From Micromonospora coerulea (lineage in GTDB: Bacteria; Actinomycetota; Actinomycetes; Mycobacteriales; Micromonosporaceae), in contig NZ_JAEMUW010000011.1 in NCBI RefSeq assembly GCF_016598485.1, positions 1 to 64,000 of the forward strand: DNA of 64,000 bases, given 5' to 3'. The notes under the pieces are model-generated. The model saw nothing but the letters and a program-made list of their open reading frames with translations, did not search any database and had not been told where the DNA came from. Position 1 is the stretch's first letter; each line of letters starts with the position of its first letter. Position numbers and translations under genes: made by a program. Shown piece after piece: positions 3,769-62,131 of the stretch.

Positions 3769-4503
3769 TTACGCGGGTAGTGACCAGCCGGGCGTGGCCA
3801 GTAGGGCACCGTCGTCGCCGACGAGCAGGGCCTCGTACCCGGGTAGCGTGGCGAGCCAGGTCACTGCCTGGGGTCCCTGCGCCGCCGCTGCGGTGGCGTA
3901 CACGTCCGCCCAGGTCAGAGACGGCCCGATGATGGTGACCGAGCGCAGGCCCCGGGCGGGGGCGCCGGTGTGCGGATCTACGATGTGCGCTCCGCGGTGT
4001 GCAGTGCCCGAGGTCGCGACGGCCCCGTCGACCACCTCGATGGTGGTGAGGAGCTGATCGGGCTGTGCCGGATCCTCCACGCCCACGCGCCAGGATCCGC
4101 GTACCGTCATGTCCCCACCGGCATTCAGGTAGAACGCGTACCCCTCCAGGTGCTCCGCGGCGCGTTCGACGGCCCAGCCCTTGACGAGGCCGGACGGGTC
4201 GAAGCGGGTGCCACCGCCGGGTTCGGGGAGGTAGGCGTTGAAGTAGCCGCCGGTACGCTGCCGCGCCTGCTCGCACAGGTCGAGTACCGCGTCGACCAAC
4301 GGGTCATCTACCGGCTCTCCCCGGTTCAGGGCGTTCAGCCGGCTGTCCGGGCGGTACGGGCTGAAGACGGCGTCCATCGCGCGCAGTTCGGCGAAGGCCC
4401 CGGCGACGGCGTTCGCCGCCGCCGGCGAGTCGGCACCGGGACCACGCACATGCACGCTGACGGGCAGACCCATGATCTGCTCGACGAACGCCTGCCTGGT
4501 CAC
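3769..4503 (-). CDS. apbE: FAD:protein FMN transferase (ApbE)
   Basis: This enzyme moves FMN from FAD onto a threonine of a target protein outside the membrane, using Mg2+. The 244-residue protein shows the family core: FSPYRPDSRLNALNRGE near residues 47-63, the GTRFDPSGLVKGWAVERAAE motif near 110-130, YLNAGGDMTVRG, and the C-terminal SVTIIGPSLTWADVYATAA with its metal-binding Asp. I see no clear signal peptide, and it is shorter than many ApbE proteins. The GTG start overlaps the stop of the FMN-binding gene (GTGA), so the enzyme and its likely substrate are translationally coupled. Confidence 0.92.
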   Translation of the reverse strand: MTRQAFVEQIMGLPVSVHVRGPGADSPAAANAVAGAFAELRAMDAVFSPYRPDSRLNALNRGEPVDDPLVDAVLDLCEQARQRTGGYFNAYLPEPGGGTRFDPSGLVKGWAVERAAEHLEGYAFYLNAGGDMTVRGSWRVGVEDPAQPDQLLTTIEVVDGAVATSGTAHRGAHIVDPHTGAPARGLRSVTIIGPSLTWADVYATAAAAQGPQAVTWLATLPGYEALLVGDDGALLATPGWSLPA

Positions 4504-51755: not shown

Positions 51756-52061
51756 TCAGGAGCGGGCGGGGGCGGTGAGGACCGCGTCGAGCAGACCGGG
51801 GTAGAGGCGGTCGAGTTCCTCGCGGCGCAGCCGGACGTACCGGCTGGTGCCGGCGACCCGGGTCCGGGTCAGGCCGGCCTCGCGGAGCACCTTGAAGTGG
51901 TGGCTCCGGGTGGCCTTGGCGATGCCGAGCTCGATGGTGCCGCAGACGTGCTCGCCGCCGTCGGCCAGGGTCCGCACGATCTTCAGCCGTACGTCGTCGG
52001 CCAGCGCCGCGAGCACGGCGGTGACCGGTACGTCGCGCAGTTCGGGTTCGTGCAGCTCCAT
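51756..52061 (-). CDS. ArsR-family HTH repressor
   Basis: A 101-residue winged-helix regulator: VLAALADDVRLKIVRTLADG, then the recognition region IAKATRSHHFKVLREAGLTR and the wing VAGTSRYVRLRREELDRLYP. The conserved S-H-H-F-K-V-L-R-E-A-G of ArsR proteins is intact. No metal-binding CxC is present, so it may answer to something other than arsenite-type metals. It is divergent from a DMT exporter, and two TTCGA..TCGAA dyads lie between, the expected autoregulated arrangement. Confidence 0.9.
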   Translation of the reverse strand: MELHEPELRDVPVTAVLAALADDVRLKIVRTLADGGEHVCGTIELGIAKATRSHHFKVLREAGLTRTRVAGTSRYVRLRREELDRLYPGLLDAVLTAPARS

Positions 52062-52151: not shown

Positions 52152-53150
52152 ATGCGTTCTCGTCACGCCACCTTTCCGCTCTTCGCGGTGCTCAGCTGGG
52201 GCGTCATGTTCCCCGTGCTGGCCAGCGCGCTGACCCGGGTCGACGCGCTGAACCTCACCACCGCCCGGTACGGGCTCGCCGCCGCCGTGCTGCTCGCCCT
52301 GCTGCTGGTCCGGGAGGGCGGCGGCGCCCTGCGGGCCGGTGGGCGGGCGGTCGAGCTGGTCGTGCTCGGCGTGCTCGGCTTCGCCGGGTTCAACGTGCTG
52401 ACCAACCTGGCGCTCGGGCATGCCGCCCCGCAGCAGATCGCCCTCTTCGTCGCCACCACCCCGCTGGTCACCCAGCTGGTCCGCTGGGCGCGGGACGGCG
52501 TACGCCCCCGGCCGGTGCTGCTCGGCTTCTCGCTGCTCGCCCTCGTCGGCGTCGGCCTGGTGATCACCCGGGGCCGGCTCGACGGGCTGGGCCAGTTCGG
52601 CGTCGGCGGGCTGCTGATGATCGGTGCGGTGCTCGGCTGGGCGGTCTACACCCACGGCGCGAGCCGGTTCACCGACTGGTCACCGCTGCGCTACACCACC
52701 CTGACGGCGGTGGCCGGCACGGCGGCCATGCTGGCCGCCAGCCTCACCGCCGACCTCGCCGGCTGGCAGCACCTGCCGGCCGCCGCCGACCTCGGTGCGG
52801 TCGCCCCGCAGCTCGCGTACGCCGTGATCGTCGCCGCCGTCCTCGCGGTGCTCGCCTGGAACACCGGGGTGCAGCGGCTCGGCGCGGCCGACGCCGCCCT
52901 CTTCATGAACCTGGTCCCGGTGACCACCTTCGTGGTGCAGACCGTGCGCGGCTACCGGCCCGGTGCGGTGGAGCTGGCCGGCGCGGCCCTGACCATCGCC
53001 GCCCTGGTCGCCGCCAACCTGCTCACCCGCGCACGGCCCGCCCCCGGCGGCGCGGCGGCCCGCACCGGTGCGCCCGCCGCCACCCCCGTGCCGTTCGCCG
53101 TCACCGACCGACCGGCGGTCACCGACCCGATCGCCGTGGTCGCGCGCTGA
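52152..53150 (+). CDS. EamA/DMT-superfamily exporter
   Basis: A 332-residue protein with ten membrane helices in two EamA repeats. The first starts FPLFAVLSWGVMFPVLASAL and holds the typical N-L-T-T-A-R-Y-G motif after helix 2; the second starts GLLMIGAVLGWAVYTHGASR. The C-terminal 35 residues are Pro/Ala-rich. DMT proteins export amino acids, purines or drugs. Its control by the divergent ArsR-type repressor suggests efflux of a molecule that the repressor senses. ATG follows TTGGAGCTGTG. Confidence 0.88.
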   Translation: MRSRHATFPLFAVLSWGVMFPVLASALTRVDALNLTTARYGLAAAVLLALLLVREGGGALRAGGRAVELVVLGVLGFAGFNVLTNLALGHAAPQQIALFVATTPLVTQLVRWARDGVRPRPVLLGFSLLALVGVGLVITRGRLDGLGQFGVGGLLMIGAVLGWAVYTHGASRFTDWSPLRYTTLTAVAGTAAMLAASLTADLAGWQHLPAAADLGAVAPQLAYAVIVAAVLAVLAWNTGVQRLGAADAALFMNLVPVTTFVVQTVRGYRPGAVELAGAALTIAALVAANLLTRARPAPGGAAARTGAPAATPVPFAVTDRPAVTDPIAVVAR

Positions 53151-53161
53151 GCTGAGCACTT

Positions 53162-53215
53162 GGGGTGGGGGGTGGGGGTTCATAGCGTGGGAAGTGGGGG
53201 CGGTGGGGGCGGCGG
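53162..53215 (+). other. G-run cluster upstream of the riboswitch
   Basis: Runs of four to six G separated by single T, then further GGG and GGGGG groups to 53215. At least two G-quadruplex patterns are possible. It fills most of the spacer between the exporter and the SAM riboswitch. Confidence 0.5.
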
Positions 53216-53247
53216 GATTGCTTAGACTTGGCGGCACAACTGAATAC

Positions 53248-53377
53248 CTCATCCAGAGGGGCTGAGGGATACGGCCCGACGACGCCCCGGCAACCACCCG
53301 CGCGCTCGATGACGAGCGAGGAGCGGGCAGGTGCCAATTCCGTCCCCGCCGCAGGGTGCGATGCGGGGAAAGATGAG
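53248..53377 (+). promoter_or_regulatory. SAM-I (S-box) riboswitch upstream of threonine synthase
   Basis: The aptamer shows the S-box landmarks in order: P1 5' strand CTCATC (53248-53253), AGAGGGGCTGAGGGATACGG, CCCGGCAACC, GGTGCCAATTCC and the P1 3' strand GATGAG (53372-53377) preceded by GGGGAAA. The ribosome site AGAGG (53376-53380) touches the P1 3' strand and a GAGG-N4-CCTC mini-hairpin (53377-53388). So SAM binding could hide the ribosome site. TAGACT at 53223-53228 is a fitting -10 box. Confidence 0.92.
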
Positions 53378-53391
53378 AGGAACTCCTCGAC

Positions 53392-54681
53392 ATGACGTCG
53401 ACGCTTCCCGCCGCCACCGGCATCGACACCACCCTCAGCCCGGCCCGCGCCCTGGTCTGCCGCGCCTGCCTCGCGCGCTACCCGCTCGCGGCGCAGCACG
53501 CCTGCTACGAGTGTTTCGGCCCGCTGGAGGTCGACTACGACGCCGCCGCGCTCGCCACCGTCACCCGGGAGCAGATCGAGGCCGGCCCGAAGAACCTCTG
53601 GCGGTACGCCGCGCTCCTCCCCGCCGGCCAGGATCCGGCCACCCGGGTGACCGTGGACCCCGGGCTCACCCCGCTGGTCGCCGCCCCGCACCTCGCCGCC
53701 GAGCTGGGCATCACCGCCCCGCTCTGGGTCAAGGACGACAGCGCCAACCCGACCCACTCGTTCAAGGACCGGGTGGTGTCGGTGGCGCTGACCGCGGCCC
53801 GGGCGCTCGGCTTCACCCGGTACGCCTGCGCCTCCACCGGCAACCTGGCCAACTCGGTCGCCGCGCACGCCGCCCGGGCCGGGGCGCCGTCGGTGGTCTT
53901 CATCCCCAGCGACCTGGAGCAGGGCAAGGTGGTGACCACGGCCGTCTACGGCGGCGAGCTGGTCGCCATCGACGGCTCGTACGACGATGTGAACCGGCTC
54001 TGCGGCGAGCTGGTGGAGACCGACGAGTTCGAGGACACCGCGTTCGTCAACGTGAACGTCCGGCCGTACTACGCCGAGGGCTCCAAGACCCTGGGGTACG
54101 AGGTGGCCGAGCAGCTCGGCTGGCGGATCCCGGCGCAGGTGGTCATCCCGATGGCCTCCGGCGAGCTGCTCACCAAGATCGACAAGGCGTTCTCGGAGCT
54201 GGTGGAGATCGGCCTGGTCGAGGCGCCGGCCGGCGGCTGGAAGGTCTTCGGCGCCCAGTCGGCCGGCTGCAACCCGATCGCCACCGCGCTGCACGCCGAC
54301 CGCGACACCATCACCCCGGTCAAGCCGACCGGCATCGCCAAGTCGCTCAACATCGGTGACCCGGCCGCCGGCCTGTACGCCCTCGAAGCCGTCCGTCGTA
54401 CCGGCGGCTGGATGGAGTACGCCGACGACGACGAGATCCGCGCCGGCATCCGGCTGCTCGCTCGGACCACCGGCGTGTTCGCCGAGACGGCGGGTGGGGT
54501 GACCGTGGCGGTGCTGCGCAAGCTGGTCGAGTCCGGCCGGCTGGACCCGGCGGCGGAGACCGTCGTCTTCAACACCGGCGAGGGCCTGAAGACGATCGAC
54601 GCCGTCGCCGGCGAGGTCGGCCCCACCCACCGGATCAAGCCTTCCCTGCGCGCCGCCCGCGACGCCGGCCTCCTCGGCTGA
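53392..54681 (+). CDS. thrC: Threonine synthase
   Basis: This PLP enzyme turns O-phosphohomoserine into threonine. The 429-residue protein begins with a Cys cluster (CRACLARYPLAAQHACYECF, two CxxC) as in the longer bacterial form. PLP lysine is in NPTHSFKDRVVSVALTAARA; the phosphate loop is ASTGNLANSVAAHAARAG; SAGCNPIATAL and FNTGEGLKTIDAVAG follow later. O-phosphohomoserine stands at the threonine/methionine branch point, which explains a SAM-sensing leader. The downstream order paaN, csp, groEL resembles the conserved actinobacterial arrangement. Confidence 0.95.
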   Translation: MTSTLPAATGIDTTLSPARALVCRACLARYPLAAQHACYECFGPLEVDYDAAALATVTREQIEAGPKNLWRYAALLPAGQDPATRVTVDPGLTPLVAAPHLAAELGITAPLWVKDDSANPTHSFKDRVVSVALTAARALGFTRYACASTGNLANSVAAHAARAGAPSVVFIPSDLEQGKVVTTAVYGGELVAIDGSYDDVNRLCGELVETDEFEDTAFVNVNVRPYYAEGSKTLGYEVAEQLGWRIPAQVVIPMASGELLTKIDKAFSELVEIGLVEAPAGGWKVFGAQSAGCNPIATALHADRDTITPVKPTGIAKSLNIGDPAAGLYALEAVRRTGGWMEYADDDEIRAGIRLLARTTGVFAETAGGVTVAVLRKLVESGRLDPAAETVVFNTGEGLKTIDAVAGEVGPTHRIKPSLRAARDAGLLG

Positions 54682-58463: not shown

Positions 58464-58686
58464 GTGGCATGCATACCGGAGGGACGAACGTCCATGTCGC
58501 GCCGGGGCCGATCCCGCCCGGAATGCGCCCGATTTGTGGTCGTGCGCCGCCGTCACGCCTCGTGTAGCGTGCGATTTCGGTCACCGATTCAGCGGCCGTC
58601 GCCGATCGCCGGAACGGTGTCGCGGGCGCGGGCGCGGCCCGTGTCCCGGGGGTTGAGGAACGCCGCGCAGAGTGAGGAAGTGCACC

Positions 58687-58890
58687 GTGGCACAGGGCAC
58701 CGTGAAGTGGTTCAACGCCGAAAAGGGCTACGGCTTCATCGCCGTCGACGGCGGGCAGGACGTCTTCGTCCACTTCTCCGCGATCGAGATGGACGGCTAC
58801 AAGGCGCTGGACGACGGCCAGCGGGTCGAGTTCGAGATCGCCCAGGGTCAGAAGGGCCCGCAGGCCGAGCGCGTCCGCGTCGTCGCCTGA
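58687..58890 (+). CDS. Cold-shock protein (CspA family)
   Basis: A 67-residue single cold-shock domain: [20 protein letters not shown] with RNP1 KGYGFI, then [20 protein letters not shown] with RNP2 VFVHF, and the end [13 protein letters not shown]. It binds single-stranded nucleic acid as an RNA chaperone. The GTG is preceded by GTGAGGAAGTGCACC. The 223-bp spacer upstream may hold a long cold-shock leader but no landmark was found. Neighbouring groEL and paaN follow the actinobacterial order. Confidence 0.93.

Positions 58891-60281: not shown

Positions 60282-62131
<1,850 letters not shown>

Follow-up and report, generated by a model that had tools for sequence, protein, structure and literature searches.

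In the 64 kb stretch of Micromonospora coerulea DNA analysed here (the window), a SAM-I riboswitch most probably controls directly the translation of a metM gene, whose product would make homocysteine from O-phosphohomoserine and thereby serve methionine and SAM synthesis (probability about 0.87). The gene (53392..54681, + strand; 429 aa) is annotated as threonine synthase, but homology, class-wide linkage and the available portions of PMC12172450 point to a MetM-like gene, a probable O-phosphohomoserine-dependent homocysteine synthase. It is probably not a threonine synthase, and the annotated name is disputed here.

A SAM-I riboswitch had been proposed for this leader in the initial annotation, and the proposal was confirmed. 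RF00162 (SAM-I, S-box; Rfam) matches the window at 53246-53379 on the + strand and scores 72 bits there, against a gathering score of 44.4 (E 6.7e-15), and in cmscan the model is covered from end to end (1-108 of 108). The 5' strand of P1, CUCAUC (53248..53253, +), and its 3' strand, GAUGAG (53372..53377, +), are recognizable in the sequence, in the cmscan alignment and in the minimum-energy fold; in this fold P1 and the helices inside it form (z -2.69; 3 of 200 shuffles fold equally well). The hallmarks of SAM-I are a pseudoknot between the P2 loop and J3/4 and a kink-turn. As judged from its sequence, the leader is a SAM-I riboswitch, and binding of SAM would be expected from the family to which it belongs. 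No second Rfam family reached its gathering threshold in the 64 kb window, and no other RF00162 was found in the 6.8 Mb genome among the 150 of 335 first-look candidates that were scored; the control set for this search gave matches in 3 of 14 controls.

Upstream of the aptamer, the hexamer TAGACT (53223..53228, +) is a candidate -10 promoter element. In 70 of 80 leaders from Micromonosporaceae it precedes the P1 5' strand by exactly 25 nt, and it is this conserved spacing that suggests its function. These leaders were drawn from the best 80 of 474 relatives, 73 of the 80 being named Micromonospora; one relative without a leader (L098) was left out, so that the set consists of 79 leaders plus the window. 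A promoter scan of the window leader with an E. coli-type consensus returned no promoter. Further upstream of the riboswitch, a regulator of the ArsR/SmtB family (51756-52061, - strand) is divergent from an ORF which by reading resembles a membrane transporter.

The linkage of riboswitch and gene extends through the class. In a sample of 197 genomes from 76 genera, a close homologue (E <= 1e-70) was present in 131 genomes and 50 genera; identity to the window protein was 93-95% in two other members of the genus and 57-68% outside the genus, in other families of the class. All 131 carriers have RF00162 5' of the homologue and in the same orientation, at a distance of 3-292 nt to where the protein match starts. 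RF00162 is matched only in part (44.7-49.1 bits), at 231-292 nt from the protein match, in G075, G102, G138 and G191, four genomes of a single genus. Altogether 138 RF00162 matches were obtained in 135 genomes of the class, 131 at the metM-like gene and 7 elsewhere, one of the latter (G002) below the gathering score. Since the class search was done with stricter filters, which left about 18 scored candidates per genome, SAM-I at other places may be under-counted.

Several matches at other places had recognizable surroundings. Two of the seven matches away from metM (L269 and L271; genomes G019 and G050) precede genes which, named by reading, resemble sulfonate-type ABC uptake systems. In G025 (L270), a SAM-I and a SAM-IV riboswitch are arranged divergently with 164 nt between them (4093-4182 on - and 4347-4461 on +). 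A second SAM-I match occurs in G119 (L268) and G043 (L267), which belong to one genus: the former has it immediately 5' of an ORF resembling an acetyltransferase; in the latter it scores 45.7 bits, barely above the cut-off, and the downstream sequence is similar, with no ORF of at least 150 aa listed.

The arrangement at the start of the gene argues for control of translation. The ribosome binding site AGAGG, identified in the sequence at 53376..53380 (+), had been described as directly abutting the P1 3' strand. The closeness holds, but the term abutting does not, since the site overlaps the last two bases of P1. The best match to the 16S complement is GAGG, which ends 11 nt before the start codon, and the ATG at 53392 is located 14 nt past the end of P1. 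According to the rule of Barrick and Breaker (2007), as given in the available part of PMC2258182, direct translation control applies when no more than 15 nt separate the start codon from the end of the aptamer core, which is usually P1; the same part of that paper already describes such control for actinobacterial riboswitches. The window leader falls within this distance, some of the 131 class leaders exceed 15 nt, and compared with the SAM-I riboswitches described there (PMC2258182, available part), in which the ribosome site lies in the P1 3' strand, no difference in kind was seen.

The class leaders are built alike. GATGA with G, A or C as the next base stands ahead of the start codon in all 131, a count that has to be read with the fact that the leader script searched for the GATGA-type motif itself and then covered the 6-30 nt after it, inside which all 131 were resolved. 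Frequent sequences after this P1 motif are GATGAGGAG (65 leaders), GATGAGAAG (21) and GATGAGGGG (14). An SD was found in 131 of 131 leaders, which is a weak count because a 4-nt match suffices. That the riboswitch works via transcription termination or Rho and not via translation would fit the dominance of transcription attenuation among Firmicutes riboswitches (PMC2258182, available part), and the sequence alone is compatible with Rho-dependent effects. We nevertheless regard this as very unlikely. No terminator-like site was found in 53100-53500 around the window leader; in all 131 class leaders an in-frame start codon follows 8-20 nt past the P1 3' strand (median 15), and a run of four T between P1 and start occurs in only 1 of them. 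These observations uphold the earlier suggestion of translation instead of termination, the lack of a terminator at the window leader making direct translational control of the gene likely.

Direct control of translation could operate as follows. When SAM is plentiful, it would bind to the aptamer and P1 would be stabilised. Since the ribosome site begins within the P1 3' strand and only 14 nt separate P1 from the start codon, closed P1 would block the binding of 30S, and MetM synthesis would fall. When SAM is scarce, P1 would open and MetM would be made. The OFF direction of the switch is presumed here from the riboswitch family.

A small GAGG/CCTC hairpin had also been suggested to take part in this control. 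GAGG (53377-53380) can indeed pair with CCTC (53385-53388), giving a perfect stem of 4 bp with a 4 nt loop at 53377..53388 (+), and one could imagine that this hairpin sequesters the ribosome site and that P1 merely controls the hairpin. Yet the pairing as such is all that was borne out. The exact form occurs in just 26 of the 80 Micromonosporaceae leaders, and 41% of shuffled window spacers yield an equally long stem. In the 131 class leaders the longest stem between purine block and spacer has a mean length of 3.34 bp, as against 3.34 bp after shuffling; with the 90 unique spacers the values are 3.29 and 3.20, and only 2 of the 90 reach p <= 0.05. Moreover, the minimum-energy fold does not contain the stem. 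Sequestration by the hairpin thus appears extremely improbable, and the GAGG/CCTC stem is best regarded as incidental to a purine ribosome site lying beside a pyrimidine-rich spacer. Another hairpin, formed around the start codon (UCGAC-AUGAC-GUCGA), was seen in the minimum-energy fold; it was given no weight because by eye it is not kept in Salinispora or L102.

In the initial annotation the target of the riboswitch was taken to be threonine synthase. With 241 bits the window protein is above the cut-off (167.1) of TIGR00260, the threonine synthase model, so that automatic annotation would name the gene thrC; this counts against MetM. TIGR00260 has five further matches in the genome, two of them strong; one of these, on C49, lies immediately downstream of lysA and hom and is the canonical ThrC (the genes were named by reading their translations). 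The linkage to hom that characterizes threonine synthase is thus occupied by the canonical gene and is lacking at the window gene. The window protein is a paralogue distinct from the ThrC of its own genome (36.5% identity), and its gene is preceded by a SAM riboswitch, like metM of S. albulus; both are features of MetM. With canonical ThrC (the protein from C49 and that of M. tuberculosis, 2d1f) it shares the common PLP enzyme kinship and the motif SFKDR; it differs from them in having an extra cysteine-containing N-terminal stretch and in being encoded behind SAM-I and not beside lysA and hom. Sixty alignment columns separate the paralogue from ThrC, including H122 in the PLP-lysine motif, where ThrC has G, in a comparison of 30 paralogues (the best-scoring of 131) with only 4 ThrC, 3 of these from the same genus. 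The genome encodes a third paralogue that resembles threonine synthase; it has N-terminal cysteines, shares 34% identity with the window protein and is located at about 5272-6447 of L008 (G000 C42).

The usual entry from homoserine to methionine could not be detected in this genome, since neither the MetX model TIGR01392 (matches in 9 of 14 controls, none over the model cut-off) nor the MetA family PF04204 (matches in 8 of 14 controls, 6 over the cut-off) had a match. The family of PLP enzymes of Cys/Met metabolism has three strong members in the genome, and these could hide another user of O-phosphohomoserine, a point against MetM. Within the class, MetX with at least 300 bits was found in 63 of the 131 genomes with the paralogue as compared to 62 of the 66 without it. 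The threshold of 300 bits is our own choice, because none of the 197 genomes and none of the 14 controls reached the model cut-off of 500 bits. Fisher's test for paralogue versus MetX gives p 2.5e-11, which overstates the evidence because the genomes are related. Among the 68 paralogue genomes without MetX of at least 300 bits, six have an intermediate MetX match (90-164 bits) and none has MetA, which was found in 4 of the 197 genomes. The 63 genomes carrying both paralogue and MetX count against MetM, and in these the paralogue is therefore not the sole route. Canonical ThrC was present in 192 of 197 genomes; the 5 genomes without it all lack the paralogue, and hence all 131 carriers have ThrC. 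A methionine enzyme able to replace MetX would be expected to show the pattern of the survey; the threonine synthase of the cell would not.

These data also bear on the alternative in which the gene product is truly a second threonine synthase and SAM either lowers the threonine branch or brings about a partitioning of homoserine phosphate. It would agree with the match to TIGR00260, with the conserved SFKDR motif and with the report, in the available part of PMC12172450, that a Microcystis homologue made threonine in vitro. Against it stand the canonical ThrC in all 131 carriers, the invariable position of the gene behind SAM-I together with its greater frequency where MetX is missing, and the columns that differ from ThrC, H122 versus G included (30 paralogues compared with 4 ThrC). 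There is very little chance, in our view, that this alternative is correct. Neither a threonine synthase as target nor a lowering of the competing threonine branch by SAM was borne out, given the separate ThrC, the undetectable homoserine acyltransferase and a paralogue family that has SAM-I in front of each of its 131 members and is often present where MetX is absent, which fits MetM.

MetM itself has been described in Streptomyces. According to Hasebe et al. (2024; doi 10.1128/aem.01247-24), as cited in the available part of PMC12172450, the Streptomyces enzyme acts on O-phosphohomoserine as a homocysteine synthase; the same source states that in S. albulus MetM prevents methionine auxotrophy and that metM has a SAM riboswitch upstream. 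Like the window gene, Streptomyces albulus metM is threonine synthase kin behind a SAM riboswitch in an actinomycete. Its reaction has been reported (PMC12172450, available part); for the product of the window gene, likened to it here by description, we infer the same reaction, the formation of homocysteine from O-phosphohomoserine. The cyanobacterial homologue, which is 51.6% identical to MetM, is described in that part of PMC12172450 as a threonine synthase and deaminase that is not fully a MetM in its cells, which counts against MetM here. In S. lividans, the part of PMC8079986 that was available lists RF00162 upstream of SLIV_16930-SLIV_16925, filed as threonine biosynthesis (the position in its table was taken as a start site). 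As in the window, SAM-I thus precedes a gene filed under threonine biosynthesis; the S. lividans riboswitch, likened here by description, has two genes behind it, whereas no carrier gene follows the window gene. In the open-licence literature, which misses most subscription journals, and in the portions of it available, SAM riboswitch, threonine synthase and Actinobacteria were found together only in a C. difficile review.

The gene order downstream was compared with that of G148 (L273), a genome from another family. There the metM homologue is followed by a carrier-like protein of 91 aa with a terminal GG, a cold-shock protein and groEL. The window also has a cold-shock protein gene (58672..58890, +; an ORF with a KWFN motif by reading) and groEL (60509..62131, +) downstream, the groEL of L273 being 88% identical and located about 1.3 kb after metM. 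The presence of both synteny markers in the window and in L273 supports orthology.

The carrier gene itself is missing here. In Microcystis, the metM homologue is adjoined by a carrier-family gene similar to S. albulus metO (PMC12172450, available part). A ThiS-family carrier (PF02597), as counted by eye, directly follows metM in 19 of 26 genomes and is absent in 7, including this genome and G073 from the same genus; PF02597 has no match on the window contig, and carriers are encoded elsewhere in the genome. The lack of an adjoining metO-like gene here and in G073 counts against MetM. The sulfur carrier neighbour is a feature of many metM loci and not of the enzyme itself. The CysO-like candidate of the genome lies in the order mec-cysO-cysM on C42 (names from reading the translations). 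This carrier (L276, 5871-6359; G000 C42) extends about 20 residues past the expected Gly-Gly end and would therefore need trimming, perhaps by the adjoining JAMM-like protein, which is Mec-like by reading. A second carrier-like protein of 91 aa, ending in VAGG (L274, 3835-4110; G000 C114), has no recognised cysteine or methionine gene adjoining. Possibly, Micromonospora MetM has no dedicated carrier and shares CysO with cysteine synthesis, or uses free sulfide; we put this forward tentatively and would not call it the expected outcome. If CysO were shared, one carrier would feed both sulfur amino acids, and SAM would control only the homocysteine branch via the riboswitch.

As far as the accessible portions of PMC12172450 and PMC2258182 go, the literature already covers this type of switch and its mechanism as well as the likely function of the gene. 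What is new here are the counts given above and the finding that the carrier neighbour is missing from this genome and from G073. As the target is most likely MetM, a threonine-synthase paralogue that would feed methionine and SAM synthesis in a genome without a detectable homoserine acyltransferase, the riboswitch would exert an ordinary end-product feedback by SAM and not an odd control of threonine. The apparent paradox that SAM represses threonine synthesis is thereby removed, the gene being most likely misnamed. The anti-correlation with MetX speaks, on independent genomic grounds, for the O-phosphohomoserine route to methionine, and where actinomycete genomes label this paralogue as threonine synthase, the label is probably wrong.
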